Below the pieces are notes generated by a model. The model saw nothing but the letters and a program-made list of their open reading frames with translations. It had not been told where the DNA came from and ran no database searches. 64,000 nucleotides of DNA from contig OZ020487.1 of assembly GCA_963971405.1 (NCBI GenBank), forward strand, positions 39,653,039 to 39,717,038, read 5' to 3'. The translations under genes and the position numbers were made by a program. The stretch is from Psococerastis gibbosa (lineage: Eukaryota; Arthropoda; Insecta; Psocodea; Psocidae). Positions 40,801 to 63,729 of the stretch are shown in pieces (the first letter of the stretch is position 1; each line of letters opens with the position of its first letter).

Positions 40801-43243
40801 TCAATTTACGTCATTTTTCAATTTTTCATTGACGATTGACGTATGTGGAATGGGCGCCTAAGCCAGTCCAGCATGACATTGGACACGATATGGCTGCCAT
40901 TAGTTAGAGATAGTTTGATTAACAAGGCAAGCAATGCATGTCCAACTAACCCTTCGTTAAATAAAAATGAGCAGACGAGATTGTGACTCACTACTAAAAT
41001 TGAGTTGGATGCGGTTAGTTTGAATGAGAAGGTGCAAGTAATTTTTCACGGATCTTCCACACACAAGATAAAAAGTGAAATCATTTTCATTACTCACGTG
41101 AAAAGATTTCAAAATATTTAGTAAACAATGAGTGGTCGTGTACGTTTGACGAAATTTATTAATTTTTCGTTCCACTACTGCAAAGATAATATGTAAGTGG
41201 TCAGACGAAATAATTATAAAAAACAAGCTTACGCGCAGAAAATTTACACTTTCTCGCGTGAAATATCATCACTTCTGAAAAACCCGATAATGTTCATGAA
41301 ACAGATGTTATAGTATAGCAGGGTAAATAGACAACTTTTAGAGAAAGCTTGCTTTGCTAAGAAATTTTCATCGGACCGAATTCATATATTTGTAGCTGTA
41401 GAACGAAAAATTAATTTATTTCGTCAAAAATACACGAACCTTTCTTGTTTACAAAATATTTATTTCATATATTAAAATTTAATTATTAAATTAACAAAGG
41501 AAAAAAAATCCACGTTTTGCTTCAATCCAACCTAGCCATGTATACTGTACTATTCCTGTTTCAGACAACATCTCAATCCTCCTCTATTTCTACGGGCCTA
41601 TGGCGATTGCTCTAATGCTAAATCTAGTTCTTTATCTATTAACAACATGGAAAATCATAATGTTGGGCAGAGCAGCAAAGATTTTAAATAATGCGAATAC
41701 GACAGGAGGAACTGGTCCTTCAAACGATAAACAGAGGTAAGAATAAAGAAAGAGAGAAAGAAAGAAAGGAATTGTCTTTATTATCCATATCAAATATTGC
41801 GCTTTAAAACAAATGTAGGAGAACGTATGGCTAATAATTGATAGCAAATTGGAGTACACCCACTACATGTTTTTCACAGAATATAGCGATCGTAGAGCCG
41901 CCATTAACACTATATAATGGGTCACAGTGCTTGAAGTCCATCCTCGGGGCTATCACATGATGCGATTCACATCAATAGTTTTTTGTACAAACCAAGTTCA
42001 ATAATTGTGGCCAACGTGTGTTAGGAAGAGGTGCAAATAATGTATCAAAATGTTCAGAAAAATTTCTTCAGTTTGTCCTGATATTTTTGACATTGATATT
42101 TCATGAGATATTTGATGTTTACACTTAACCCCTCAGATTGTCACTTAACACGTGTATAAAATGCCCCTGGCGATTGGGAAACCTTGCTTCATTTCGCGAA
42201 CTGAGATAAAAAGCAACGTATAGTATGCAACAATCTGAATTCTTATGTATTTGTCCTAAGATGGCATTGAATAACTTTACTCCACAATTTTTTGCAGGCT
42301 TCCCAATATAACATTATCTATTTAGTATCTTTCACCAAAACGACCATTACAAATTATAATAAGCCTCTAGCAAAACCATTGCTTGAAGAAAACAATTCCA
42401 CCATAAATGAATAAATGCTGACTTTTTTTGTTCTATTACTAAGCCAACCGAGTCCCGGAACCACCTGCTTTACATGCCCTCGGAAGCATGGCCACAAAAC
42501 GCAGCAAGTATGAGACTCAAACAAACAAAAGACTACTCTACATGCCCTGACCATAAACGAATCAGTTTCTTGTACCAATTATGGAAAAGGGAGATCATAG
42601 AGATCATATTATGTGTAGAAAGCACCAGCATTGGAGTAACCTAAATTCAGATGAACGAGAGGTTACAAGACAAAGTGGCCAATTTTAAATGAAAACGCTG
42701 CACGAAATAATAATAGGGGCGTCACACTATGTTAATAGTAAAATAATACTAAAGATGTAAACACTTATGATAACCTAACAACTGGGGTACCTACCCTAAA
42801 AGAGTAAATGCGATACATTGTTCAAGCGCGTATAGAGTAGCACTAAATGTTCATTTGTTCTATAAACATAGAATTTATTGCCTACGCCTGTTTCTATTGT
42901 TGATAATTGTTCCAGATTGATTGTGTACACGAAGCTCTTCGTTCTTATGGGTTTAACATGGATTACAGAAGTAATAGGCTGGGGGGTACACGGAGACAAT
43001 GCCTTTTGGTTTATAATGGACATCATAAACCTCCTGCGAGCTATATTCATCTTCGTCATATTTATTTGTAAAAGACCCATTCTACAAAATATTAAGCATC
43101 GCATAACTGTTTTTATAAGGAGAGACCAAGGCCGTGGCGTTGTTAACCTAGCAACAATTCATGGAAAAATGCGTCCGTCAGTCAACAGGAGGACAATGCA
43201 GGGTTTAAAAGACGTAGAACTGAAAGAACAAAATAGTCCCTGA
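31821..43243 (+). CDS. Methuselah-like class B GPCR 1, complete, 621 aa
   Basis: Exons I infer: 31821-32241, 34063-34274, 36337-36489, 37740-37866, 38467-38667, 39318-39396, 39906-40078, 41565-41736, 42916-43243 (stop TGA). All are AG/GT with matching phases. Residues 1-20 (MLSVLNLLFLLIVATN) form a signal peptide. The ~300-residue ectodomain has Cys-rich segments (KKCCPFDSQ, IKKCCPIQQIYN, NWRCRG, EYCGESTW) and several NxS/T sites. The seven-helix part begins TYGVLFIFGGIFLLLTVALS and carries family landmarks such as LPELRTTMHNKVALTHNATL, SFVWLNAMCIEM, YSAYAWGLT, LYFYGPMAIAL, TKLFVLMGLTWITEVIGW and INLLRAIFIFVIFICK. A cytoplasmic tail of ~60 residues follows. It acts at the plasma membrane; the ligand cannot be inferred. 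Exon 4 probably uses the donor CCA|GTGGGT rather than the next GT, to keep phase. Confidence 0.92.
32351..32711. mobile_element. Harbinger-like foldback MITE (copy 3), TSD ATA
   Basis: Ends GGTGCCCATTCCATTGACCG / its inverse finishing GGGCGCC, flanked on both sides by ATA. Long-arm form with the conserved core containing AAAATTAAAAAATGGCG. It lies in GPCR 1 intron 1. Confidence 0.8.
32757..33039. mobile_element. hAT-type MITE with 8-bp duplication
   Basis: Termini CAGAGGCGTAAAGTT and AACTTTACGCCCCTG are inverse with one mismatch and fit the CAG...CTG ends of hAT elements. Flanks GGTATATC (32749-32756) and GGTGTATC (33040-33047) match at 7 of 8 bases. There is no ORF, and it contains a G tract at 32991-33002. 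Confidence 0.75.
33100..33720. other. Repetitive intron with C/G tracts
   Basis: Two diverged blocks (about 33255-33320 and 33575-33645) share GAAAAA, a GGG(G)TTTACRCA motif and following A-rich sequence, related to the 7.0 kb and 8.28 kb repeat. Poly-C or poly-G tracts occur at 33113, 33554 and 33669. No gene. Confidence 0.4.
34637..35902. mobile_element. 1.27 kb element with ~70 bp inverted termini
   Basis: 34637-34705 (TACCCTAACCAGCTCAAGTT, TCGGACACTT, TTTTTGTATCACTTATTTTA) returns inverted at 35833-35902. Repeat A copy 4 occupies most of the right half. There is no transposase ORF, so it is non-autonomous; class unknown. It lies in GPCR 1 intron 2. Confidence 0.7.
35082..35810 (-). repeat. 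Repeat A copy 4
   Basis: Opens at a 12-base G tract followed by GACGTCACTGGAGGTGAGGT, as in copy 2, and ends ATACTACGTATAAATTGGAA. It contains an expanded GACA microsatellite. It is nested in the inverted-terminus element 34637-35902. Confidence 0.75.
36038..36199. mobile_element. Palindromic Harbinger-like MITE (copy 4), TSD TTA
   Basis: The arms ACGTCAACGAAAAATTGAAA and their inverse make a near-perfect hairpin of 162 bp. Flanks are TTA at 36035-36037 and 36200-36202. Nearly the same hairpin lies at 40708-40858. Confidence 0.8.
36691..37153. mobile_element. TIR element GGCCGGCGACACAC, TSD TTA, duplicated left end
   Basis: GGCCGGCGACACACTATCCC at 36691 and again at 36772 (an 81-bp tandem copy of the left end), with the inverse ending at 37153. 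TTA flanks the outer ends (36688-36690; 37154-37156). No transposase is present. The 3-bp TTA duplication suggests PIF/Harbinger. Confidence 0.75.
37160..37739 (+). other. GPCR 1 intron 3 remainder, nothing seen
   Basis: Between the TIR element and exon 4 of GPCR 1 I find no repeat or coding signal. Confidence 0.4.
40273..40667. mobile_element. Harbinger-like foldback MITE (copy 5), TSD TAA
   Basis: A 395-bp element with ends GGCGGGGTTTCCACCGACCG and inverse ...GGTGGAAACCGCGCC, flanked by TAA on both sides. The arms run ~150 bp each around a core with ATGGCGCCATGGGATA. It lies in GPCR 1 intron 7. Confidence 0.85.
40708..40858. mobile_element. Palindromic Harbinger-like MITE (copy 6)
   Basis: GGCGCCCATTCCACATACGT and its inverse bound a 151-bp hairpin nearly identical to copy 4. 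The right flank is TAA and the left AAA, so the duplication is imperfect. It is only 41 bp from copy 5. Confidence 0.75.
42414..42500 (-). mobile_element. tRNA-derived SINE, short fragment
   Basis: The minus strand shows CATGCTTCCGAGGGCATGTA, AAGCAGGTGGTTCCGGGACT and GTTGGCTTAGTAATAGAAC, with an AAAAAAAGTCAGCATTTATT tail. The internal body and tRNA head are lost. It lies in GPCR 1 intron 8. Confidence 0.7.
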
Positions 43244-44513: not shown

Positions 44514-47500
44514 CTATCTATGGTGAAGAGAAACTAACAATTTACGGAACTGATCATAACTACTTAAATAAACCGCATTTGACACAGCAGCTTTAATTAG
44601 ACTAGGCGTAAAACCTTTATAAAGCCCATACAATCTTTCCGCCTTCCATGTACGTTTAATAGTTGATAAAATACCTGAAACCCGTAGGAGAGGCACTGCA
44701 CTGGCTCCTTCGGGCATGCCCGACGCTTGCATTCGCTTCTTTATTACATCCATTGGGTAGACAACCGCCTTGCCGCATACACCCGCTACAGCACCACAGC
44801 CAAGGGTTCCTGCCAATGTCGCATCCCCTGCGAAATAATAATAATAATAATATGTTTGCAAATGTTTTGATTTCAAATGTTCTGTCATGTTTTCCAACGC
44901 CAGCGTTTAGAATTTCTGCTTTAAGCTACCCTGTTAGCCTGGTGGGAGGAAGTGAGTCTGTTTCTTAACTTGAGGCACCCTAAGGGCAGATTTCTTCCCT
45001 TCAGGGGGGGGGGGGGGTTGACTGACAGGGCAGACCTCCTGATTAAAGTGGATTACGAACCACTTGGGGAACAACGTAGTCACACTATTAATTCGGATTA
45101 CACCCTGCCAACGCTGTACACACAGTTTTGAACAAGTTCTGTTAGAGTGGATTCAACATGGTTTGGCCGCTGGCATTTAAAAATGTGAAAATATGTTTCA
45201 TAAATCCTATGATGGCGATGGCGCTTAACCATAAGTTAAGTATTGCCAATAGAGGTGAAACATAGGAGAAAATGACAAAGGTAGTCAAAGGTAATAGAAG
45301 GAAATGTGACCCAAGTTGCAGGGTTCAAGCGTAAACAAAAAAAATAGAAAAGGAATTAAACAAAAGAACAATTCAACAGACAGGGCTGACAACAAAATCG
45401 AAGGCAATGAATATTTTATACCCATAATTGGTAGGGTCGGCATGCACACTATTCAGGTTGTCCCTGATGAAAAAAAAAAAAAAATTGACAAAAAGTATAT
45501 CCGAGCAACAGTGATGCATGGTGGCGGTTCCACCATGGTGTTGGCCTGTTTTTCGAGATCGCAGTTGGACCATTGGACTACATCCCCGAAATTATGGATC
45601 GTTTTATTTATCAAGACATTTTTAGAGACAATGTTGAGCCATTTCTGTTCCAATAAATGCTGATCCTCTTGAAAATCCACGGGAAATTATTTCCGGTGAA
45701 GTCCACCAGAAAAAAAAGGAGAAATATTAAAGAACTCAGAAAAGCTATGGAAGACGAAGACGAAGAACATCCCCGTTGCAACAATCACTTCCCTGATACA
45801 GTCAATGTCCAATTGATGTGTTGAGGTGAGTTTTTAGAACTAACATTTTCGGCGATGTCAACGGACTAAATAAAAAAAAAAATCTAGAGTACTTACCTGT
45901 TAAGGACCGAACAATTGAAATAAATATGTTATTAAATCCAAACACCAAAGCCGATAAAGGGGTAGTTGAAACTAAAGCTGGTATGATACCCCGTATTAAG
46001 ACAGGAGCACCTTCGGCTGCGATTATTTTTTTGGTTGTATCAATCATCCCGAAATAAATCTAAAAATATAATAATAATATATTGATACCAACACAAACAA
46101 TTACAATAATTTATTACAATGGATATACCGCAAGGCACTTGCCCTTGTACGGTTTAACGTTGGTTTAATTAATGTTCATTTTCTGACTTCTCTTTTAATT
46201 TAATTAAATAACTATTATTTATGAAATGAGTACATAATGAAACGAGTCGTTCAATATGAAGCCGTAAAAAATGGGGGGGGGGGGGGAGGGAGAGGAGAGG
46301 TATATTAGACTATTGTTATTTGTGATCCAATCCATAAGAAATGAACGGATGGTATTACTTATTTAGGTCAAGTTGTCATACTTAACTTACATACTTCATA
46401 CGCCTCACTGTGTTTGTCAAGTTTCTGTGTGTTAGTACGACATATTACTGCTGGTATATACCTTCTTCTTTTCTTTAATATCGAGTATTAGCAGAATTGA
46501 CTAGGTTAAGATTGCATGTATGATCATATCATACATACCAAGTAGCAATAATAAATTTAATCTTGGCTTAATTTTTCCCCATATAATTACAAAGACATTC
46601 ACTTTTCACTTCCATGATGAATCAGTAGAATCCGGTATGATAGGCCGTGGTCGATCTGAAAGCATACTTCCAAACCTTTCGTCAACACATGCGGTCGACA
46701 TCTTCAGTGGCGCTGCGTAGACTGTAGACTGTAGATTGTATCTCGGAGGCTCCACAGCAGTTGCTGCGCACTGTAGATGTCGACGACAGATGTTGACTAA
46801 ACGTTTGGAAGATTGATCGACCACGGCCTGTCCTCCCGGAAGCTACTGTTCCATCGCCTTCTCCCCGAATTTGGAAGAGTGTAGTCAAAGTGAAATTTTT
46901 GAGCTTTGATCTTACGACTGCTCATCTTTGTTTATTAGCATTAGTCTAATCTCTTCTGTTTTCATTACTAGGCTATTTAGTGTGGATCAATGCCCAAGAC
47001 ACTATGTAAAATGCACATTTTTAAGGCCGGGTACACCTGAACGATTCGATTCTAGCGATTCGCGGACAATTTGTCATAGGAACAAATGGGATGGTGCAGA
47101 ACGAAAATGTTTGAAGCCGAGGCGTGTCCTGGGCGTGTCGATGGGAAATCCGTACACCTGCGTGCGTTCGGCTTCACACCAGTTTCAGAAATATTTTTAA
47201 GTCAACTCTGTCGTTTCCCAACTACCCATTTGATATAATAGCAAATTTCTCAGCGAGTTACCGGCGTGCGAATCGCCAATGTGAACCGGACCTCATTTGC
47301 TTAGTGGACTTCTTACATAAGTGTGCGTCACTTGTATAATGACAGTGGCTTAAAATTCTTTATTTAATTTATTAATTTAATAGCTGTTAAGCTTCTATAA
47401 GTCCTCACAAATGTGTAGAAGCACGGAATAACTTCCAAGTGTTAAATATAACGCAGGGAAAAGGGCTAAGGGCAAATTTTATTACCTTAGGTTCTCCCTG

Positions 47501-49894: not shown

Positions 49895-52800
49895 TTATAT
49901 AGGCCTAGGCTCCGCTGCCACTAGTGTTTGCAATTCCGAAATGTTTCTCTCCCTCCACTCCTTTAACTCGACATCTCTTGTATCTTCGCTGACCTTACGG
50001 CTGACGGTCGTAGAAGTGCTAAATGCGTCTGTAGGAGCACTTCCAGATGCCCTTCTTCTAAATCGGTCACTGGCGGTTTTCAGTCGATTGTGGATGCTTC
50101 GGAGAACAGGAGGCTTGCATACGAAAAGCACGAAAATGAGGACGGCGCGCAGCAAATTGATCACGCCCAAAACAACCCAAAAAGAGCCTTTCCCACCAAC
50201 TGCCCATCCTATGATTTCCGTCATCCACGTCAGTCCCATTAAAAGAAACAATTTAGTGTAGACAATCAGTCTGGAAAAAGAAAATCATTTTTGTCTAACG
50301 GAAACGAAACTCTATCTCTATCCTTTATTTGAAGCTTATTGCTGGCGCTAATAAAATAGGCTTTACTTGGATAGGCTCATACTATTGCATGGCCTACTGT
50401 AGATTATGGCATGGCTTAGACACGTCTATTAGGAGGTTTAGGCTATAGCTCATTAATTCATAAAATTTGGTGTACAGTATTTAAATTAATTGAATTCCTA
50501 CCTTTGCTTATTTCCTTGAACAGAAGAACCGCCTGTTGTTTTAGAATCTGTATGGTGAAGAATGGCAGTTTGTCGGTGAACACTCATAATTTTCCAAGCA
50601 GTGAATACATATAAAACAAGATTGAAGATTAACAGCACAGCCATTGGTCCATAAAAGTATAGCAGAGGAGATATAGTATCTGAAAATAAGCAATAAGAAA
50701 TTTAAATTTTAAAAATATGAATAGCCGCATGTTAAAACAATGCATCCTCCTATAGATATACCGTATAGGTACTTGCATAGGGGGTACTGGATCAGCATGC
50801 ATATTGAATTGAATTGAAAACGACTTTATTGAATAAAAACAAAACAAAAGGCGAACAATAAGACTATATAGTCTTCTTTTCGTGCTAACCTTAAAAACAA
50901 ACATATTGTATTTATATATATATATATATATATGCTTAAAATTAAATAGAGAAGAAACAAGAGAAAAAGGGGAGAAGGGGATCCATTGTCGTCACCATTA
51001 TAAGACCGGAGAGAGTCTCAAGCGTATATGATAAGCCAACTGCGAGTATTCCTACATTTATAAAAAAATGAGTTTCAAAAATACCAGTCAGGCTATTTCG
51101 TGGAATTTCAATTAATTAAAAAAAAAAAAAGTTTCAAATAGATTGCCCTGCCCCTTAATAGTCCACATGTTACGGGAATTATTTAATTAAGATTTTTAAT
51201 CCAGATTGAACAATAGGCTACTTGACAATTTATGAAAACCTGTTTTAACGCATTGCCTATAGTTAATTATAGGCCTGTAATATATTTATTTTATAGTATA
51301 TTTATTTTATAGGCCTACCCCTTAAAATTATTATTTTTCCTATAAAAAAACGTTATTTAGTAGGCTTGGGTAAAAAATTTTTTTCACGTTTTTTCCCATC
51401 AATTTAATTTTGATGGTTAAGAAATAGGGGGTCACGTGACTGCAGAAGGTGACGTAATTTGTGACACCGGAAAGTATCCGCTAGCTATAGGGAACTAGGG
51501 AATTACTATAGCAATTGTAATGGTAGTGACATCAGTGTGCCATGTCGTTAACCTGCCCTTAAAGCTACCTATATAAACTGACTTATTTATGCAGGTGACG
51601 TCAAGACATGTAGAGTAGTGGTAAGGACTCTGACTTTCACCCGAAAGGTTGTTGGTTCAAGTCCTATACTTCCTACATTTTCTGGCCATGCTTCGGAGGG
51701 CATGTAAAGCAGGCGGTCCCGGGTCTTCCCAGTTGAGTGTAAGAGAGGGCTTTATAGCCCTAACTCCGCTAGGTTGGCTTAGTAATAGAACAAAAAAGTC
51801 CTTATTTATTTTATTTTATTTATTTATCTAGCATATTTTATATTTTATTCTTACATTACTGTCGAGTAGCCCATTGGTTTAATTGCGGAAAATGAACTTC
51901 ATATAAAAAATTTGTTCGGTATCATTATTATCGACTTGCCAGACTTGCCTCGCGAAACAGTCTTTGCTGTACATGTAGCTTATTGAGCATAGGCATATAA
52001 ACTTACGTCTGGCAAAGTCACAGTAGCAGGAAAATCCAGGCCTCGGTAATTCAAAGGGTGGCATCTCCACCATTTCCATGCTGATTGTTACAATTGAGAT
52101 CAAAGCTGTAAGGCCCCAAGCATAGGCGCTATAGCAGATGTATCGCCTCATTGAGCTTCGAGATATCAGGCGAGTTGATCTACAACGTAAGAAATAGGGT
52201 TTGTTTAGAAAAGACAATATACCTATTGCACAATAACGTACCATTTTAATTATTATTTTGCTCCTAAGATAAATCATGCGGCATTTAGCAAGCCTGGAAG
52301 GAAGAAACAACGTGTACCAGGAAGGCGACACAGAAAGGATCCTAAGGAAACATGAACTCAAGAGCTTAGCACGGATGGTGTACGCAGGACAAGACGTTAC
52401 CAAGGAGAACAAGCAGTATGCCAAGATCCCGTTCATAGGAGAAGTCAGCATGAAAGTAGGAAGACTAATAACCCGAACCACTAACAAAGTTGTATCCTTT
52501 AGCTGCCCGCCCAACTTAGGAAAATTCCTCATCAACTGTAAGGATAAGGTTAATAATAATAGGAAATCAGGGGTTTATAAAATTTCTTGTAATGAATGTA
52601 GTGCGAGTTACATTGGACAGAGTGGACGCAATTTTAAGTTCCGCTTACGTGAGCATAAAAATGCGATCGGTAAAAATGACTGTACCTCAGATTTTGCGGA
52701 CCACCTCTCAAGTAACTCGCACTCATGTAATTTTGAAGATTTGAAAATCCTACATTGTTGTAGTAAAGGTAGACTATTAGACAGGTTAGAAAGCTTAGAG

Positions 52801-55800
52801 ATTAGAAAGGCTATTAGGAATAACGAGGTTCTCACGAATGATATAATGTTTCAAACTGTATCCCCACTACTCGATTTATGTACTCAACCCCCGCCTCCTC
52901 CTCCCACTCCCTTCCCGTAGTATATAAGCTGGCGTTTTTTCATGTGTTGTTAGTCTGATGATGGATTTTATTCGAAACCGGTCACTATTAAAGTATTTTA
53001 CTGTGGATCATTGCGTTCTTCTTCCTCTACTCATAAAGCCTGGAAGTTCACAAACCGCACCAGGGTCATCCGTTTTCTTAGATTTTACAAGCTTTAAAGT
53101 ATGTTTTAATAGTTTTTATAGGCACTCACCTAAAAGTAGACGACATGTCTATGCACATTGCATTCAACCAGAATAAAGACCCCAAGCATGTAAATTGTAT
53201 CATCAAGCCTGTATATCAATAAAAAATTGCTGTAGACTCGAGGAAAATATTCTTCATTTTAAGGGCAAGTTATTTAATGTTTGTAACCTACTTAACTCTG
53301 ATTATTTTTCTGTGTCAATGAATACCATTGGCCTTTTTATGACATAAGGCACATCAATTGACACTATAAATACGAAACCTTATTGAAATTCAAACTCTAC
53401 GTTAGGTGCCCATTCCATTGACCGGATAGGGCCATTTCCAAAACGGAGACGTGGTAGCAGACACTCAAGACTTCGCTGGCGTTTCCACCGACCTCGCATT
53501 GCAGAATTGACGGAAATGTTTATTTTCCTCTATGCCATAGTTAAAATTGATCAATGATCATACAATAAAATCACAAAGAAACAAACTAAAATTAAAAAAT
53601 GGCTTCATGGGATATGTTAATTACAAACATTTTAATAGATTTCTATAAAAAGAAAAACAAACATTTCCGTCAATGTCACTTGCAATCTGCAATGCGAGGT
53701 CGATGGAGACGCTACCTAAGTCTTGAGTGTCTGCTACCACGTCACCGTTTTGGAAATAGCCCTAGCCGGTCGGTGGAATGGGCGCCTTAGATCCGGCTCG
53801 TGGAACAGGTTATGGGGGCAGCAGTTCTGCGGAGGAAAGTAGGCCAGTAGAAAATACAAATTATAGTTGCTAAATTTAAAATCAGAGTGAAAATTTAATT
53901 ATTTGGGTACGGTAGTTGATGGCAGGTAAATAACGACATTTATCGTTAATTTAATCTTATAACTTACAGGGAACAACACATTGAGAAGCATCCACACTTG
54001 TGAATTTCATCGCGCCCCAAACGAAGTAAGCAACCATGAGAGTGGCATTATGAGTCAAAGCTATTTGGTTATGGAGACGGCAGCGAAGTTCAGGTAACCA
54101 TAATGACACACCCACAGTAACCAGTAGGCATAGCCCTCCGATGATAAACAATACACCGTAAAGTTCTGAAACAGATCAAGCTCCTCATTCTCCATATATT
54201 ATTATGCACCTTTATACATATAACACATATTTTAAAATCTGATGGGCTAGGGGAAAAATAATCAAATGGGAAAACCCACACAAAGCAACGGGGAGACCTA
54301 GAAAAAGGCAAGCCAAGTGCGAGCGACACTACATGGTTTCACCTGTTTTCGAAACCTTCCAAATTAACATTCGGTATGCGTTTTATTTATTGATTTTATA
54401 ATCTAGCAATATATAACATAATATATTTACAACAGAATACCTCAAAATATCAAAATAATCCCTTACATAAAAAAATTTGAACGTGAAGTAACGAGATATC
54501 TCTACACCAATTTACAAATTAATAGTTAATACAGACCCGAACACAGGATTAGCAGAGTGGCGATTCAGTAATGACATACTTTAAATCTACCTACCGTATG
54601 CAATATACATACCGTATATATATATAAATATTATATATACTGTACACACATCCACTCATACAGCCTACATATATATATATATACATACCGTATATATATA
54701 TGTATACATATAGATACGTAAAAGTATATATATATATATGTAGGCTATATGAGTGGATGTGTGTACAGTATATATAATATTTATTCTAAAATATTCACAC
54801 TATACCTCATATTACTCTTTGTCTTGCATTTTATTATTGTTTGCTATATTATTATCTTGTTTGATTCCTTTTATTTCATTTTATTTATTTATTTCTTTTC
54901 ATTAAATCTAATATAGTAACGATTATAGATTGTAAATTTATTATATTTCACTTTAACTTTTGTAAAAGGGGGGCCCAGCACGGGACTTGTCCTTTGGGCT
55001 CCCCTTCCAAATGTAATTAAATTGTAACTGTTGTACTCAAAGAAAAAATAAAGATTATTATTATATTATTATTATTATATTTATTTATTTATGTAGTATT
55101 GTATACTGAGCACGCAGGCGCATCAGATAGAGGAGATGGCGGCAAAGGAAGCCTGATGAGTCAGTCTTATAATTTCAGGACTCAGTAAGGTATATAACTA
55201 CAAAGGCTTTCACGGCCGGAGTCGAATGAGGAACCAGTAGAATCCGGGCTGATGGGCCGTGGTCGAAGTGAAAGTGAACTTCCAAACGTTTCGTCAACAT
55301 CTGCGGTCGACATCTTCAGTGGAACTGCGTAGACTTCTAAGATTGTATCTCGGAGGCTCAGCAGTGACTGTGAGGGCAGGAGGTTGTGCTCTGAAATTTA
55401 TACTAAGATGCGGGGTGGTGGGGGTTGGAGGCGGAGTCATCCTCGCTCCTGATTGGCTCCCTACTACCTCAACCTGATTTCCAGATGATGACACCAGTTT
55501 CTTTGCTGTAGTCTTCTTTAAGGCTGGATACCAAATTCTATTGACCTTTAATCCTTCTTCTTTCCTATTGAAGTTATGCGGGTGCTTGTGGATCTCTATA
55601 GCCTCTCTGTGTAACCGAGGGTGGTATGAAGAAGTTGTAGAAAGTACTGTAGCATCTTGAAATTGTATTATGTGACCGGTTTGTGTTAGAACATGCTCAG
55701 CGATTGCAGACTTCTCCGACTGTAGAAGACGGCAGTTTCGTTTATGTTCATCAATCCTGGTTTTTAAGCTTCGTTTCGTAGTACCTATATAGACTTCTCC

Positions 55801-58800
55801 ACACGAACACGGAATCCTGTAAACACCTGCTGACGTCATCGGGTCCCGGCTGTCTTTGGCTGATCTGTACAAACTATTTAATTTTCTCGTAGGCTTGTAA
55901 ATAGTCTTCACATTGTGCCGTAAGAAGAGTTTACCTATACGGTCTGAGACTCCCTTGATGAATGGAAGGCAGAGTAGGCCAGTAGTACTTGGGGGTGCGT
56001 CTTGCCGAGCGGATCTATTCATGCGGGGTCGGATGGCGCGGGCTATTTCTCGTGCGCTGTATCCATTCGATTGCAGTGCCGTGTCTAAGTGCTTGAGTTC
56101 CCGTTGAAGAAATGTTGGTTCGCAGATCCTGTTGGCACGGTGGATGAGTGTCTTTATCATGGCTCGTTTTTGGCTCGGATGATGGTTAGAATGCTTATTC
56201 AAGTATCTATCCGTGTGGGTCGGTTTTCGATACACTGTGTGGCCCAGAGTTCCGTCTTCTTTCTTCGTTACCAACACATCAAGAAAAGCCAACCGACCAT
56301 TGTTTTCCTGTTCCATCGTGAATTGGATGTTTGCATGGATCGAGTTTATATGATTCAGGAAATTCTCCAGGTTCTTTTGGCCATGACTCCATACCACGAA
56401 GGTGTCATCAACATACCGGAACCAACATTTCGGCTGTAGAGGGGCTGAGTTCAAAGCTGTATTTTCAAAGAACTCCATGTAGAAGTTAGCGACTACTGGA
56501 CTGATTGGGCTGCCCATCGCGACTCCATCCAATTGTTCATAGAAGGTCGAATTCCATTGAAAATACGTCGTTGTCAGCACATGGTGGAACAAAGCAGCAA
56601 TGTCATCCGTGAATTTTTCTTTTATCAACTCCACAGTTTCCTTGATGGGTACCATTGTGAAGAGTGACACGACATCAAAGCTTACCAGTATATCATCAGG
56701 TTCCAGGCGGATGGTTTTCAGTTTTTCGATGAAGTGCGTAGAATCCTTGATGAACGAGTCATTATCCCCTATGTGTACCTGAAGGAGTTTCGTAAGGTAC
56801 TTCGCTAAGCCATAAGTGGGGGATCCGATCGCACTAACAATAGGGCGCAATGGTACATCCGGCTTGTGGATTTTTGGTAGGCCATATAGTCTCGGTGGCA
56901 AGGCTTCTGATTGAACCAAATCCCGTTTGTCTTCAGTGGGTAATGAGGAGTCTTTGACCAGCTTCCTAGTTTTGGCCAAGATTTTCGAAGTTGGGTCGCG
57001 GTTCAGAACCTTGTAGGTAGCCGGGTCAAGTAATTCTGTAATCTTCCTCTGGTAGTCTCCCGTGTTCATGACCACCGTGGCATTCCCTTTATCCGCCGCA
57101 AGAATTAAGATGTCCTTGTTGTTGTTTAAGCTCTTTAATGCCGCGCGTTCCTTGGTGGATATATTGGGCACCGGGGGTTTGGCGTAGTGAAGAATTCTAG
57201 CAGATTCCCGTCGTATTTCTTCAGCTGCCGTTGGGGGTAAATGTCTAAGTGAGGACTCAATGTTGGCGATGATATCTTCCGTCGGGATGCTCCTTGGTAC
57301 CACAGCAAAGTTTCCACCTTTTTCAAGAAGAAGTTGTGCTCAAGAAGAGCACAACCTCCTGCCCTCACAGTCACTGCTGAGCCTCCGAGATACAATCTTA
57401 GAAGTCTACGCAGTTCCACTGAAGATGTCGACCGCAGATGTTGACGAAACGTTTGGAAGTTCACTTTCACTTCGACCACGGCCCATCAGCCCGGATTCTA
57501 CTGGTTCCTCATCAGTAAGGTATGTCAGCTACTACAATTATCCTATCGACTGCGCCAATTCTAGTAGCTAACATAGCTTTCTGAGTCCTGGAATTCGACT
57601 GACTCATCAGGCTTCCCTTGCCGCCATCTCTACCTGATTCTCAGTATTCTACAATTTACTTAACTGGTTCGGTCTTTTTTTGCTCCCTCGAAGCACAGCA
57701 ATAGGCCTACATCGGAAATGATTGTCAGTGAGATTTCCAACTTACTTGTTTTTGTCTCTTTCGATGTTGCAACACCGCAGTGGATTATGTTGTTGAGAAC
57801 TATGTTCCCATCATGCCACGTTTTTTCGCCACAGTATTCGGTCGTGTTGTATATGAAGTCATTCACCTGTAACAGACGTGTTAAAATGAAATAGGACTAA
57901 GTGAGAGTAGCTCAACCTATAGGATACAATTAACCGCCAGTCAGTTATCAACATACATGACCTTGAGAAAGCCAAGACTTTCAAATACCTGGGAGCAACA
58001 AAAAACGAGGTGGCGGCTGTGAACACGAGACTCGACGTCAGAGCACGGGTTATCTCAGGCTGGACCAAGTGGAGAGATATGGTGGAGATATTGAAGGACA
58101 GGAGAATGCCGAAAAAAGTAATAAGCCTCATTTAAAAACAAGTAGTGAGACCGCGTGTGATTGACGGGGCGGCGAAGTGCTGGCCACTGAGGAAGGACGA
58201 AGAGCAACTCCTACGTCATATGGCGGAGATGCGAATGTTACTACTCTCTCAGATACAAGATAACGGTTAGGAGGAAAAACTAAGATACTTGAGCGGAGAT
58301 GCAGGTAGCCCCTATCGCCGAAAAGGTCAGGGAACCGTAGGTCAGCATGTTAAGGACGCACGAAGACGAGTGAAGATGGACATCTCTCAGACTTTCAAAT
58401 ACATGGGAGCAACATAAAACGAGGTTGGCGGCTGTGAAAACCTCACGGATAACCTCACTCTGGACAGAGATTCTGAAGACAGGGGAATGCCCAAAAAACC
58501 AAAAGGCCGTTTATGACTGACGGGGCGGTGGAGTGCTGGCCACTGAGGAAGGACAAAGAGCAACTGTTACCTACATATGGCGGAGTTGCGAATGTTGCAC
58601 TACTCCCTCTGGTAGAAGTTAAAGGATAGCAGAAGGAGAAGTATATAGCAGAAGATACTCGAGCGGAGATGCAGGTAGCCCCTTTCACCGAAAACTCAGG
58701 GAACATATGGTGGGTACACACAAAGACGAGTGAATATGATATAGGCACCTACTACAACGTGTATGTGACTATTTGGTGGACCAGGGTGACCAAGGATGTC

Positions 58801-59477
58801 CCTACTGACACAAAAGTGAGAGAGAACCTCCGGACCCATTGGTTTCTCGCCAGAGGATGCACATGAACACCTAGAAATTCAAGATTCCCATGGGAGGGAC
58901 AAGGCTACGTTAAAGTAAAGTAATTATTTTTGTGGAGTATTACGGTATCGATTTAGCAATCGACAAGGCCGCGAAATTTTTCATATTATCATAAGTTATG
59001 GCTAACGGTACTTTTGTATTAGGCTTACTAGCATATAACATCGAATTTCCATAAGCGTGATTTCCTTATAAATGGGCTATGCTTAGCCTATATTTATAAC
59101 AGGCATGTCTATAACTTTTAACAATTAATTAATTGTACTGTCACTGGGGAAAAAATTTGAAATCACTGGATTATAGTGAGTTTGATGTAGAGGTTAGAAT
59201 ACGCTGAACTGGAACCCCACACTCTATTTTCTCTCTCGAATAATTTCTCCCACCTTTATTCAAAGCGAAATTCAATAAGAAACTGATCATTGGCCCACGG
59301 CTAGTTTGGAAAACAAATTCGCACACAAACCTTAATTGAACCAGATGCTAGAAAGGTGGCTTTCCCCGTTGAGAATCCTCGACATCGCCAAGCCTTGTCA
59401 GCACTTAACAGCAAGCTGTGAACATCACAATTTGGAATCTTCTTGTTGGCTACGTAATGACGGCCTAAGCTTGTTGC
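49895..59477 (-). CDS. Methuselah-like class B GPCR 2 (5' partial, 423 aa seen)
   Basis: Exons I infer on the minus strand: 59477-59331, 57866-57746, 54165-53968, 53208-53130, 52179-52007, 50679-50502, 50270-49895 (stop TAA). They correspond one to one with exons 3-9 of GPCR 1, with the same phases, and two have the same length (79 and 173 bp). Paired landmarks are AWRCRGFS, EYCGEKTWHDGN, LYGVLFIIGGLCLLVTVGVS, LPELRCRLHNQIALTHNATL, GSLFWLNAMCIDMSS, YSAYAWGLT, LYFYGPMAVLL, LMGLTWMTEIIGW and INLLRAVLIFVLFVCK. The first two ectodomain exons and the signal peptide are not found before 60769 and must lie beyond the window. Introns host two Penelope-like elements, MITEs, a SINE and LINE debris; the ORF is uninterrupted. 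Plasma-membrane receptor, ligand unknown. Confidence 0.9.
50915..50935 (+). repeat. (AT)n microsatellite
   Basis: About ten TA units in the intron preceding the sixth GPCR 2 exon listed. Confidence 0.7.
51608..51805 (+). mobile_element. tRNA-derived SINE, full-length reference copy
   Basis: The head has GTAGAGTAGTGGTAAGGACT (A box) and B box GGTTCAAGTCC at 51654-51664, as in a tRNA. The body has CTTCGGAGGGCATGTAAAGC, GGTCCCGGGTCTTCCCAG, AGTTGAGTGTAAGAGAGGGC and CTAGGTTGGCTTAGTAATAG, then AACAAAAAAGTCC and (TTTTA)n. It is the most complete of four copies and lies antisense in a GPCR 2 intron. Confidence 0.85.
52262..53000 (+). mobile_element. 5'-truncated Penelope-like element, GIY-YIG part
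   Basis: A 214-codon reading (52276-52920) ends a Penelope-like ORF: a linker (KVGRLITRTTNKV), then a GIY-YIG endonuclease with SGVYKISC, ASYIGQSGRNFKFRLREHK and a conserved Glu region (LESLEIRKAI). The RT is missing, so it is a 5'-truncated insertion. The 3' UTR (52921-53000) holds a hammerhead-like motif. It differs clearly from the element at 55-57.6 kb. It is antisense in a GPCR 2 intron, and its left end lies ~85 bp from an exon. Confidence 0.85.
52951..52987 (+). ncRNA. Hammerhead-ribozyme-like motif at Penelope 3' end
   Basis: CTGATGA (52955-52961) and GAAA (52974-52977) frame a 12-nt weak stem-loop. GAAA runs into the palindrome ACCGGT, then C at 52983 as the possible cleavage site. 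TAGT before the core pairs with ACTA after it. Stem II needs a bulged T. Penelope-like elements are known to carry hammerheads, but activity of this one is inference. Confidence 0.45.
53405..53786. mobile_element. Harbinger-like foldback MITE (copy 8), TSD TTA
   Basis: A 382-bp long-arm copy: GGTGCCCATTCCATTGACCG to its inverse ending GGAATGGGCGCC, flanked by TTA on both sides. Very similar to copies at 32.35 and 40.27 kb. It lies in a GPCR 2 intron. Confidence 0.85.
54627..54786. repeat. AT-rich foldback
   Basis: TACTGTACACACATCCACTC returns inverted as GAGTGGATGTGTGTACAGTA. The arms also include the ATATAATATT ends, and the centre is (TA)n. It is a ~160 bp near-perfect hairpin. Confidence 0.75.
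54790..55085 (+). mobile_element. LINE-like 3' UTR with (ATT)n tail
   Basis: No coding sequence, but the segment CAGCACGGGACTTGTCC, GGCTCCCCTTCCAAATGTAA, TTGTAACTG, AATAAAG and a TTATTATTATTATT-type tail is the usual form of CR1/L2-like LINE 3' ends. 5'-truncated. Confidence 0.45.
55127..57645 (-). mobile_element. Intact Penelope-like element with inverted terminal repeats
   Basis: The outer blocks 55127-55180 and ~57590-57645 are inverse copies (GAGATGGCGGCAA, GCCTGATGAGTCAGTC, CAGGACTCAG). A second inverse pair, ~55200-55390 and ~57340-57515, holds CTTCCAAACGTTTCGTCAAC, GTCGACATCTTCAGTGGAAC and GAGCCTCCGAGATACAATCT. One intact ORF runs on the minus strand between them, and its last codons lie inside the left repeat. 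It sits in the same orientation as GPCR 2, in the intron between its exons 57866-57746 and 54165-53968. Confidence 0.85.
55294..57303 (-). CDS. Penelope-like reverse transcriptase with GIY-YIG endonuclease, 669 aa
   Basis: The ORF is uninterrupted. The RT core shows ILAADKGNATVVM (~66-79), PPRLYGLPKIHKP (~136-148) with PLRPIVS, VSFDVVSLFTMVPI (~207-220), DGVAMGSPISPVVANFYMEF (~259-278) and the catalytic YVDD at 297-300. The segment AFLDVLVTKKEDG, YRKPTHTDRYL is typical of Penelope rather than LINE RTs. The GIY-YIG nuclease spans ~490-585: GVYRIPC (493), YIGTTKRSLKTRIDEH (505-520) and a later Glu in REAIEIHKHP. The C-terminal tail (PRYNLRSLR) is encoded by the terminal repeat. The start ATG at 57303 lies just inside the other repeat. 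It would copy the element and nick its target. All key residues seen are present. Confidence 0.93.
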   Translation of the reverse strand: MVPRSIPTEDIIANIESSLRHLPPTAAEEIRRESARILHYAKPPVPNISTKERAALKSLNNNKDILILAADKGNATVVMNTGDYQRKITELLDPATYKVLNRDPTSKILAKTRKLVKDSSLPTEDKRDLVQSEALPPRLYGLPKIHKPDVPLRPIVSAIGSPTYGLAKYLTKLLQVHIGDNDSFIKDSTHFIEKLKTIRLEPDDILVSFDVVSLFTMVPIKETVELIKEKFTDDIAALFHHVLTTTYFQWNSTFYEQLDGVAMGSPISPVVANFYMEFFENTALNSAPLQPKCWFRYVDDTFVVWSHGQKNLENFLNHINSIHANIQFTMEQENNGRLAFLDVLVTKKEDGTLGHTVYRKPTHTDRYLNKHSNHHPSQKRAMIKTLIHRANRICEPTFLQRELKHLDTALQSNGYSAREIARAIRPRMNRSARQDAPPSTTGLLCLPFIKGVSDRIGKLFLRHNVKTIYKPTRKLNSLYRSAKDSRDPMTSAGVYRIPCSCGEVYIGTTKRSLKTRIDEHKRNCRLLQSEKSAIAEHVLTQTGHIIQFQDATVLSTTSSYHPRLHREAIEIHKHPHNFNRKEEGLKVNRIWYPALKKTTAKKLVSSSGNQVEVVGSQSGARMTPPPTPTTPHLSINFRAQPPALTVTAEPPRYNLRSLRSSTEDVDRRC
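57930..58870 (+). pseudogene. Decayed LINE RT fragments in tandem
   Basis: Two related segments, ~57955-58370 and ~58385-58870, repeat the same blocks: CTTTCAAATAC(C/A)TGGGAGCAAC, GGCGGCTGTGAA, GACAGG(A/G)GAATGCC, GACGGGGCGG and GAGCGGAGATGCAGGTAGCC. The frames read FKYLGATKNE, RMLLLSQIQDN and AGVAPIAEKVRE-like phrases of RT C-termini, broken by stops. It lies in a GPCR 2 intron. Confidence 0.65.
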
Positions 59478-60225
59478 CTGAAAATTAGCCACTATTTTGA
59501 TGTTTCTTATTAACAAATTCTACAATGTACAGTACCTATATACTATACAATGTATGTCGCTCCTTGATTTGCCAACTATTTTAACTGGAAAAATCAATTT
59601 TTTTTATTATGATACATCAAAAAATTTCAATTTTTCCCTCTTATTTTACGTTCAATCGTCGTATCTGCAAGCCTGTAAAATTTCTTGGCTGCGAACTGTA
59701 AGTAGACACATAAATTAAAACCACCGGAAAAACCTTTGGAACGGTCTCCTGAAAAGTTAGCATTTTTCAGTTAGAACAGTTAGCAAATCAAGGAGCGATA
59801 TAAAGTACAGTATATTACAATAACCCAGCCTTCGGACCCCATTGTATTCGTGGGAAGGTACCTACACTGCAGTATAAAAACCATGGGTATAAGCTATGCA
59901 TTTCATAAAAAATACCGTATACTTTTCAAAAAAATGATTTGTCTTGTGGGTGGAACTAATGCGTATAGTAATAAGTAATTTAAATAAGATTTCTGTTAAT
60001 AGAATAGAATATCGTACCGTATATTTCTGTAGGTGGGGCAAGACACATAAAAACCCGTCATATTACATGCATACATTACCTACTATATGTAATGATTTAA
60101 ATGGTGGTAAAAATATCTTATCCTTAACTTATACAACAGATATGGTCGAAAACAAAAAGCAAATACATTAAAGGTCATACCCACTCATACCATGCACTCA
60201 TCTCAGATACCTATGTCATATATTC
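59478..60225. other. GPCR 2 intron, nothing seen
   Basis: I searched this stretch on the minus strand for the missing ectodomain exons (pattern with paired Cys and a W-rich start) and found none. It is AT-rich without recognised repeats. Confidence 0.4.
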
Positions 60226-60768: not shown

Positions 60769-63729
60769 ATGGATAATTTCCTAAATGATATAGACTCTCA
60801 TTTTAATGAAACAGTTGAATTTGATGGTTGTAACCAATTTGATTGGAATGATCTACCTAGCTCTCTGCTCATTTTCCATCTAAACATAAGAAGCGTAAAT
60901 GCCAATTTTGACGAATTTTTAGTTTATCTAAACTCATTAAGTTCTAGTCCTGTCTTTGATGTTATCATATTAACTGAAGCTCACCTTTCACCACATGATG
61001 GTAGTGTGTACCAAATTCCTGGCTATCAAACCCACTATTGTACAACCAAGATTAATAAAAATGGTGGTTTGATTATTTTTTGTCGTACAAATTTAAATGT
61101 ACAATACTATACCCTAACCAATATTAGAGAATGTGATGCTGCAAAGATTAGTTTCTCAATTGGCCCACAGCCTTTTGATATCCTCGCTGTTTATCGCTTA
61201 CCGTCATGTAATGAAATCATCTTTGTTGAAGATTTAAATAATTATTTAAAGAACATTAAATCTGAAACATCATCTATCATTATTGGTGATATGAATTTTG
61301 ACATTCTTGACCATTCCAAAAATATTTACACCTCTTGTTATGTTGACATGTTGGAAAGTCACGGCTACATCTCCAGCGTCAATAGTCATACTCGAGTTGT
61401 AGGGACCAGTAAATCATGTTTAGATCACATTTTTTGCAGAATGGATTATTGTTTTACTGGAGCCGTGGTTAAAACTTTCATTACCGATCACTTTGGCACT
61501 TGCCTCAGAGTTGATGGTATACTAAACAAAATTGAGCCGGAAAATAAGCGTAAAACTTACACCTTTGTTGATTATTCTCTAGCTGACTATCTTTTAACCT
61601 CTGAGAGATGGGACTCGATTCTATGCCAGACGGATCCCGTGGTGGCTAGTAGAAATTTTATTGAAATTATGAAAAAGTATATCAGTGAGTGCACACGGGA
61701 AAAAATCGTTAAACATAAAAATCTAAAACTTAAACCTTGGATTACACAGGGTCTCATGATCTCAATTCGGAAAAGAGATAAACTCTTCAAAAAATCCAAA
61801 AATGAGCCTGAAAACATTAATTTGATCAATTTCGCCAAAAATTATAGGAAAATTTTATCAAAAATGCTTAAAAAAGCGAAAATATGTTACTATAAAAATA
61901 AATTTATCTCAGTTGGTAAGGATTCTGCAAAAACATGGAGGCAAGTTAATGAAATATCTGGCAAATCTAAATCGCAAAAGGATATTCAGAAGATTCGAAC
62001 AGAAGGCAACAATATCATCACACAAAGTAACCCTTTAGAAATGGCGAACTATTTCAATCAATTTTTTGCATCAGTTGGTACTAGACTGAATCAACTCACA
62101 AATAATAACCCTGTATATTATGAAGAAATAAATCCTAGAATACAAAGCATAAACAGTTTCGAAACATTTGATGTGAATGAGGTACAGCAAGTGATAATGA
62201 GTTTGAAAAACTGTGCTTCGCCGGGTCTAGATGGAATATCCACAAAAATACTTAAGAAATTCTCCGAGTATATTAAAGTACCTATCACTCATATCGCCAA
62301 CATAATTTTAATCACTGGTAAATTCCCTGATGTATTAAAAATTGCGGTTATTGTTCCTATTCACAAGAAAGGTGATAAGGCGCAAGTTACGAACTACAGA
62401 CCTATATCGTTAACCTCTAATCTCGCTAAAATTATTGAAAAATTAGTTAAAATTCGATTATTGTTTTGGGTTGAACCTCAATTAATGGCACAACAATACG
62501 GCTTTAGATCAAAACTCTCAACTACTGATCCAATCTTAAAACTAACTAATGCGATCTACTCCGGTCTTGAAAGTGAAAAGAACCCAATTGCTATCTTCTT
62601 AGACCTTCAAAAGGCTTTCGATGTGGTTAACCACAATATCCTATTGAAAAAACTTAAAAATGAATTTGGAATATCTGGAACAGTACTTAAGCTTTTTGAA
62701 AGCTATTTAGATGACAGGTATCAGTGTGTACGGATTGGAGAAGTTATTAGCGGTTATGAAAAAGTATGTTGTGGAGTCCCGCAAGGAACAGTGCTTGGCC
62801 CAATTCTTTTTATACTATATATAAATAGCCTTAAATATTTACCTTTGCTAGGGCAATTATTTTGCTATGCTGATGATACTGTAATTTTTTGTACTGGAAA
62901 AACATGGAATGAATCTTTCTTTAACGCAAATCATGACTTAAATATAATTAATAAATGGCTGTCATATAACAAATTAGTGCTCAATGTTGAGAAGACAAAT
63001 TTCGTATGTTTCAGCTACACTAAAACGAGGCAGCCTTCAACTGATAGAGTCATACAGATACACGAGCCTGACTGTTTAGGGGTAGAATGTAACTGTTCGT
63101 CTATTACTAGAGTAAAATCAGTAAAATATTTAGGAATGTTAATTGACCAACATATAACATGGTCCGAACATGTAAGACAAACGTCTATGCGACTTAGAAG
63201 AACGATATACATTTTTAGACGATTGAGAAATGTTCTGAATGTTCATCTACTACGTATGATATTTTTCGCCATCACTCAGCCAATTGTAAACTACGGCATA
63301 TGTGCGTGGGGAGGGACCTTTGGATCACTTATTAATAAAGTAAATATATCCCTGAACATTATCCTACGAGTAATGTTAAATAAAAGCAGAAGAGAACATG
63401 CCCAACCCTTATATAATCAATTACAAATTCCGTCAGTTTACCATACCTACACCTGGGAAATGTTAAAATTGGTCCACAATAATAAAATTTGCCTACCACC
63501 AGCCTCCGTTAAATATTACAACACAAGATCAGTACAGAACATTAGTTATTTCCCAAACATCACCAAAAGCCGCACGACTTTCTCGCCTGTTTTCTTGTCA
63601 ACGAAAATTATAAATGCTCTCCCCACTCATATTACAGATTTACTAAGAAAAAAAGATTTTTTACCATCAACAAAGAACTGGCTCAATAATTCGGAAATAA
63701 CATTTCTTAAATCACTATTAAATGAATAA
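60769..63729 (+). CDS. LINE ORF2: AP endonuclease plus reverse transcriptase, 986 aa
   Basis: One unbroken ORF of a CR1/L2-group (Daphne/Crack-like) non-LTR retrotransposon. The N-terminal AP-type endonuclease shows FHLNIRSVNANFDEF, ILTEAHLS, IIIGDMNFDIL, SCLDHIFCR and TDHFG. The RT shows PIHKKGDKAQVTNYRPISL, QYGFRSKLSTTD, IFLDLQKAFDVVNH, GVPQGTVLGPILF and catalytic YADD at residues 700-703 (62866-62877). After the RT come YLGMLIDQHITWSEHV and an ending with NTRSVQNISYFP. The first ATG in frame is at 60769, and sequence before it has no ORF1. No stop or frameshift is present, so this is a recent copy. It lies antisense to GPCR 2, probably in an upstream intron. The exact clade is uncertain. 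Confidence 0.92.
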   Translation: MDNFLNDIDSHFNETVEFDGCNQFDWNDLPSSLLIFHLNIRSVNANFDEFLVYLNSLSSSPVFDVIILTEAHLSPHDGSVYQIPGYQTHYCTTKINKNGGLIIFCRTNLNVQYYTLTNIRECDAAKISFSIGPQPFDILAVYRLPSCNEIIFVEDLNNYLKNIKSETSSIIIGDMNFDILDHSKNIYTSCYVDMLESHGYISSVNSHTRVVGTSKSCLDHIFCRMDYCFTGAVVKTFITDHFGTCLRVDGILNKIEPENKRKTYTFVDYSLADYLLTSERWDSILCQTDPVVASRNFIEIMKKYISECTREKIVKHKNLKLKPWITQGLMISIRKRDKLFKKSKNEPENINLINFAKNYRKILSKMLKKAKICYYKNKFISVGKDSAKTWRQVNEISGKSKSQKDIQKIRTEGNNIITQSNPLEMANYFNQFFASVGTRLNQLTNNNPVYYEEINPRIQSINSFETFDVNEVQQVIMSLKNCASPGLDGISTKILKKFSEYIKVPITHIANIILITGKFPDVLKIAVIVPIHKKGDKAQVTNYRPISLTSNLAKIIEKLVKIRLLFWVEPQLMAQQYGFRSKLSTTDPILKLTNAIYSGLESEKNPIAIFLDLQKAFDVVNHNILLKKLKNEFGISGTVLKLFESYLDDRYQCVRIGEVISGYEKVCCGVPQGTVLGPILFILYINSLKYLPLLGQLFCYADDTVIFCTGKTWNESFFNANHDLNIINKWLSYNKLVLNVEKTNFVCFSYTKTRQPSTDRVIQIHEPDCLGVECNCSSITRVKSVKYLGMLIDQHITWSEHVRQTSMRLRRTIYIFRRLRNVLNVHLLRMIFFAITQPIVNYGICAWGGTFGSLINKVNISLNIILRVMLNKSRREHAQPLYNQLQIPSVYHTYTWEMLKLVHNNKICLPPASVKYYNTRSVQNISYFPNITKSRTTFSPVFLSTKIINALPTHITDLLRKKDFLPSTKNWLNNSEITFLKSLLNE

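Follow-up and report, generated by a model that had tools for sequence, protein, structure and literature searches.

Paired A and B outer ends in Penelope-like element insertions of Psococerastis gibbosa point to priming at both target ends

The window analysed here is a stretch of 64,000 nt from Psococerastis gibbosa (assembly GCA_963971405.1, contig OZ020487.1, positions 39,653,039 to 39,717,038), whose minus strand carries at 55194-57511 an insertion of a Penelope-like element (PLE) with reverse transcriptase (RT) and GIY-YIG endonuclease. Comparison with related insertions in the same genome leads us to regard this copy as, probably, a recent Penelope/Poseidon-type insertion in which both 3' ends of the cut target primed complementary DNAs (cDNAs), one beginning at a site B of the element RNA and the other at a site A, that were joined head to head. 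The insertions compared have two arms, A and B outer ends, a target-site duplication, mostly unrelated inner breakpoints and source variants common to both arms; from these sequence features we infer the enzymatic steps, and the use of one RNA with an asymmetric protein pair, that are set out below.

On the coordinates of the unit in locus L009 (FL), the 3'-side ends of the copies fall at FL 2594-2597, termed site A, or at FL 2626-2628, termed site B, about 34 nt apart, and the stretch between the two is the 'tail' of the PLE literature. Outer ends were classified at 37 loci, namely the window and 36 others (L009-L044) that were fetched by their similarity to the window element; L001-L008 coincide in position with the window or with later loci and were left out of the count. 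All 22 independent insertions of this family (family 1) that have both ends and a duplication possess one A and one B end. No A+A or B+B pair occurs among these 22, and no locus of the 37 save L013, by its pattern label, has two like outer ends. The 22 include L038, whose A arm of only about 14 nt was recognised separately, and count L042 and L043 as one insertion, as they have the same joint. These two loci, on contigs C13 and C1 respectively, share joint coordinates and B flank and differ in their A flanks, as in a duplicated or rearranged insertion. The left end of L017 lies outside the fetched locus, the B end of L015 occurs twice, and L023 and L039 each have an extra degenerate end of the same type nearby, which was taken for another copy.

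The same pairing was seen outside family 1. The window contains at 52276-52920 a PLE remnant of another family (GIY-YIG, Pfam E 3.5e-5), and a protein search with this remnant gave at least 151 matches in several sub-families, the best 150 of 2,667 candidates having been scored. Ten close minus-then-plus (head-to-head) pairs were counted among the matches listed, and nine were fetched, the pair on C15 being left out. One tailed and one tail-less end were found in eight of eight fetched pairs of family 2, which is about 60% identical to the remnant, and in the single fetched pair of family 3, the remnant's own; in these nine insertions the tail is about 45 nt and the duplications are 10-14 bp. 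As the window-element protein and the family 3 remnant share 26% identity in the endonuclease region, A+B pairing holds in three families (22/22, 8/8 and 1/1) that include distant ones. Both end types are common, since single ends of family 2 (n=6) are B in four cases and A in two. Under equal and independent choice of ends, the probability of the observed pairing is 2.4e-7 for 22/22 and 4.7e-10 for 31/31.

The duplications in these 31 insertions measure 9-15 bp, with a mode of 11; a match of 9 bp was reached by 1 of 2000 random flank pairs. None of the 12 loci with a missing or damaged end (L009, L011, L014, L016, L026, L028, L030, L033, L035, L036, L037 and L039) has a duplication, the best match there being 5 bp. 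Element 3' ends that face outward on both sides, together with a duplication, suggest that both target 3' ends were extended and that the cut left staggered 3' overhangs. Just outside both cuts the sequence, read from each primer, is T-rich. It is highly improbable that the inverted repeats arose from recombination after insertion or from two independent nested insertions: repeats are common in this genome and L042/L043 do represent one rearranged or duplicated insertion, but a single duplication encloses the two-armed structure in 22 family 1 and 9 other insertions, with A and B ends each time.

The inner ends of the arms were compared at 23 joints. Inner breakpoints lie more than 300 nt apart on the element in 20 of 23, as at the window joint (492|2431), and within 121 nt of each other in L012, L029 and L035. 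Overlaps or insertions of at most 12 nt are present at 19/23 joints, with some inserts resembling copies of nearby bases, and hairpins of at least 7 bp occur at 4/23, the window joint among them, versus 1.8% of simulated joints. The joints thus have the appearance of two independent cDNA ends united by end joining, with snap-back synthesis in a few cases. The hairpins and the three close breakpoint pairs would also suit self-priming, as proposed for Adineta vaga (accessible text of PMC3846280), in which a single cDNA or antisense template folds back and is copied to give an inverted repeat. Folding back would give matching breakpoints, however, and self-priming predicts neither A and B outer ends nor a duplication, so that we rejected it for most copies on the strength of the 20 widely separated joints and consider it improbable as a general account. 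As a separate observation, arm ends cluster at FL 2405-2431 (6 ends), near a TATA-like box, and at FL 2537-2543 (3 ends), just 3' of a hammerhead-like cut; simulation gave p of about 0.06 and 0.01, respectively, for places chosen after looking, which is suggestive only, and we claim nothing from it. Core-like strings seen by eye in the PLE copies may be those of a hammerhead. Rfam returned no hammerhead match at E up to 5 in window 50000-60000 and in L009 5600-6300, and none at E up to 1 in L046, L047, L068 and L069.

Sequence differences between copies indicate that the two arms of an insertion have a common origin. In a comparison of 24 insertions, which kept L036, L037 and L013 and left out L038 and L042, 35 of 13,918 bases (0.25%) distinguish the two arms of an insertion, versus 0.94% between different insertions. 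Agreement of the arms at 14 variable columns was seen in 116 of 120 comparisons, versus a mean of 67% and a maximum of 81% with shuffled partners (500 trials). Where at least 50 sites could be compared (23 insertions), the two arms resemble each other more than they resemble the remaining insertions in 20. Because the arms share variants, both would derive either from a single RNA or from several transcribed from the same source copy. A doubtful but possible alternative is priming at both target ends on two separate RNAs, with A and B set by order (first cut B, second cut A) or by target sequence. It would accommodate arms that are both long, as in L010, L020, L022, L027, L043 and L044, where they overlap by more than 1 kb among copies picked for one long arm, as well as a cut-site base preference that is stronger on the B side (0.58 versus 0.36 bits on the A side, at the best position). 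Random RNAs would not share source variants, however, unless most expression came from one locus or RNAs were used in cis.

Returning to priming of both target ends with a shared template, we envisage that the endonuclease would cut the two target strands about 11 bp apart and leave 3' overhangs, and that each target 3' end would then prime reverse transcription of element RNA, one at the internal site B and the other at site A, which is 34 nt closer to the RNA 5' end. The two cDNAs would extend toward that end and stop at unrelated points, end joining that involves microhomology or short templated inserts would unite them head to head, and fill-in of the overhangs would make the target-site duplication. 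One RNA bound asymmetrically by a protein pair may supply both start sites, and exactly one tail per duplicated insertion would be expected for this reason. We put at about even chances the more specific proposal that one RNA, two protein copies and two non-equivalent start sites, one per cut strand, account for the single tail of cDNAs joined head to head.

Several points weigh against this interpretation. The pattern scan labels both ends of L013 as A; this locus has no duplication and lies outside the 22, and its right end reads TTTGACTTTGCAGTTA, in which both ends of the tail are present and the middle is missing, so that we interpret the locus as having an A end and a B end damaged by loss of part of the tail. 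The duplication of L024 lies in AT-rich sequence and its B end is 2.5 kb beyond the arm. In L024, L032 and L037 (3/23) the arms are not closer to each other than average, and shared variants could also arise through gene conversion between arms or from different transcripts of one source locus. The stronger base preference of the B-side cut perhaps reflects in part the element's own AT counted as duplication, and target sequence may influence which end receives A and which B. The three families were all sampled in a single genome, and copying one RNA twice requires strand displacement or a tandem template. The available portion of PMC11167929 presents the PLE protein dimer as a prediction and reports no start-site difference between top and bottom strands, which fits A+B pairing only if either strand takes either site.

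On the movement of PLEs, self-priming has been proposed on one side (PMC3846280, in part) and, on the other, internal starts on both strands have been demonstrated in vitro, with further steps described as 'yet to be validated experimentally' (PMC11167929, in part). The insertion counts from three families favour two-ended priming in which each of the two start sites serves once on a shared template, and they predict how linked in vitro products should look. Were the single tail to come from one RNA as proposed, the 'optional tail' would record that a symmetric enzyme had held one asymmetric RNA, inverted copies would be the normal outcome, and copies without duplication would be failed second-end reactions. 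The points that merit attention are the strictness of the A+B pairing, the way it goes with duplications and the common source of the arms; the inverted layout with one tail was already known. In the searchable literature (including the accessible parts of PMC12910113 and PMC3636483) we did not find strict A+B pairing stated, and it may exist in subscription papers, most of which lay outside the search.

The copy in the window is young, truncated and ordinary, and belongs to a known kind of element, a Penelope/Poseidon-type PLE by a clade assignment based on layout. Its parts are as follows.

55182-55193, no strand: left copy of the target-site duplication TCAGTAAGGTAT (flank comparison).
55194-57329, minus: B arm, the 5'-truncated main cDNA, with start at site B and with tail (comparison with sister loci and outer-end classification).
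55194-55225, minus: tail, the stretch between start sites B and A, in the B arm only (sister-locus comparison).
55226-55392, minus: left inverted repeat, the element 3' end, carrying the C-terminus of the open reading frame (ORF) and the ATG of the following unit (about 55311-55313).
55294-57303, minus: ORF of 669 codons with RT and GIY-YIG, without about 213 N-terminal residues.
57330-57345, no strand: head-to-head joint of 16 inserted bases, with a 9-nt snap-back palindrome with the A arm.
57346-57511, plus: A arm, the inverted element 3' end, with start at site A and tail-less.
57512-57523, no strand: right copy of the target-site duplication.

The initial annotation had reported a 669-codon ORF with RT and GIY-YIG, and this ORF is indeed present on the minus strand from 57303 to 55294, matching Pfam RVT_1 at E 9.6e-12 and retaining YVDD. 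The GIY-YIG residues (GVY..YIG..R..H), also said to be kept, align with the Pfam-positive GIY-YIG protein at 52276-52920 (BLASTP E 1e-7, 26% identity), though Pfam makes no GIY-YIG call on the family 1 protein of the window itself; a PDB sequence search returned distant RTs and chance matches only. The end repeats were correctly described as facing each other, forming an exact inverted repeat of 167 nt (55226-55392 and 57346-57512, 100% complementary), and the ORF end does fall inside one of them. This arrangement would result from a B cDNA of 2,136 nt joined to an A cDNA of 166 nt. The limits first given, 55127-57645, take in target DNA and are replaced by 55194-57511: homology with seven compared sister loci ends at about 55192 and 57512, and the 12-bp duplication TCAGTAAGGTAT lies at 55182-55193 and 57512-57523, directly outside the element. 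An outer inverted pair at 55133-55193 and 57573-57630, 87% alike, is target DNA, because the duplication and the end of sister-locus homology fall within it, and terminal inverted repeats of the kind found in DNA transposons were rejected on this ground.

The element was further described as intact, which does not hold. Copies reaching further share sequence upstream of 57329 in frame with the window ORF, and L009 has a whole ORF of 882 residues whose ATG lies within the 3' repeat (RVT_1 E 1.5e-11 on its protein); L020 (882) and L011 (881) are also complete. The window copy is cut off at 57329 and lacks a full-length ATG-to-stop ORF; its open frame of 681 codons is without the N-terminus, and the ORF opens at GTG because of the cut. 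Start and stop regions overlap by 20 nt and the ATG sits in the 3' repeat; therefore, only copies that exceed one unit (about 2.63 kb) in length can encode the whole protein. The unit boundary is crossed in 7/37 loci (L009, L011, L016, L020, L022, L029 and L033), giving tandem or partial-tandem copies with pseudo-long terminal repeats (pLTRs), and the window copy is not tandem. RT with YVDD, C-terminal GIY-YIG residues, the pLTR layout, a tail of 30-45 nt and 5' truncation with a short duplication are all found, as in PLEs.

When a 1.5-kb piece of the element was searched against the genome (409 Mb, 68 contigs), 40 of 673 candidates were scored, so that counts are lower bounds; there were at least 52 matches, of which at least 28, the window's own included, span the whole query at 97-100%. 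All 36 other fetched loci are at least 95% identical to the window B arm, 21 of them at least 99%, with a median of 99.0%. Near-identical copies with target-site duplications, which the initial annotation proposed to look for, exist in number (22 insertions with duplication), and the element is recent and not a lone diverged copy without relatives above 95%. Exactly 200 N lie inside the element, near or between the arms, in 5/37 loci (L010 4845-5044, L017 2076-2275, L020 3167-3366, L022 5135-5334 and L044 2419-2618), which suggests that the assembly broke where inverted repeats are long.

Three short fragments of repeats belonging to the same PLE group lie in the window at 26729-26952, 46582-46852 and 25907-26137, the last of which carries MKFHEVTLE, resembling the start peptide that the tail would encode in families 2 and 3. 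In L047 and L069 (families 2 and 3), site A is at or next to an ATG and KFHEVT was seen by eye in both. The tail of these families may therefore encode about the first 15 residues, being a coding stretch that is also bounded by RT starts.

The element was initially placed in a receptor intron. This position is likely from exon resemblance, as minus-strand exons at about 54,000-54,170 and 49,898-50,284 resemble a plus-strand seven-transmembrane (7TM) paralogue at 38,430-43,240, with a probable further exon, recognised by eye, at about 57,740-57,850. The domain match is weak: the joined exons of the plus-strand paralogue match 7tm_2 at E 0.0036, below the curated cut-off, and no 7TM match was found for the minus-strand receptor pieces or by Pfam for single receptor exons. 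The receptor may be 'Methuselah-like'. A 601-base piece of COX1 stays open under genetic code table 5, which makes an invertebrate host probable. Elsewhere in the window, the plus strand at 60769-63729 has a 986-codon open ORF of the long interspersed nuclear element (LINE) type, with RT and a below-cut-off endonuclease match, and at 28309-28605 an open frame that by eye resembles mitochondrial ATP6 and is probably a nuclear mitochondrial insert. An AT-rich palindrome at 54624-54784 sets off many sub-threshold microRNA models, and the microRNA-like Rfam matches at about 54600-54780 were rejected as its product.

Penelope of Drosophila virilis, the type element of the clade, has inverted repeats and a tail of about 34 bp and resembles the window family in these described features. 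In LINE-1 twin priming, cDNAs primed from two target ends are linked in opposite orientation, with a second start that is internal and variable; here, in contrast, the arms begin at two fixed sites, 34-45 nt from one another, and the element 3' end is present in each. Closer parallels are found among PLEs. The accessible text of PMC3846280 describes, for Pen2a_Av and other Penelopes of Adineta vaga, direct and inverted pLTRs, a 31-bp tail on one inverted pLTR, duplications of 9-10 bp, an ORF start inside the pLTR and palindromes at head-to-head joints, all of which are shared with the present families. The initial annotation was thus right that the layout bears on priming, but the layout is not unusual for the group, inverted pLTRs with one tail being known. 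Adineta vaga has few copies and its tail was called optional, whereas dozens of near-identical copies are present here with one tail per duplicated-target insertion, which argues against the self-priming proposed there. The tail is likewise treated as optional or as peculiar to individual copies in the available parts of PMC3846280, PMC8969392 and PMC11167929, the last of which cites an optional Penelope tail of 30-40 bp. The nearest biochemical counterpart is Poseidon_Ac of Anolis carolinensis (PMC11167929, accessible portion). In that element RT and GIY-YIG share a single ORF whose start lies within the repeat, close to a hammerhead motif, and the purified protein cuts and extends both strands of an AT-rich target in vitro, starting at two adjacent internal RNA sites that bound the tail. 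It differs in that start sites were reported per strand, unpaired within an insertion, and in that its host is another animal; the likeness is one of layout.

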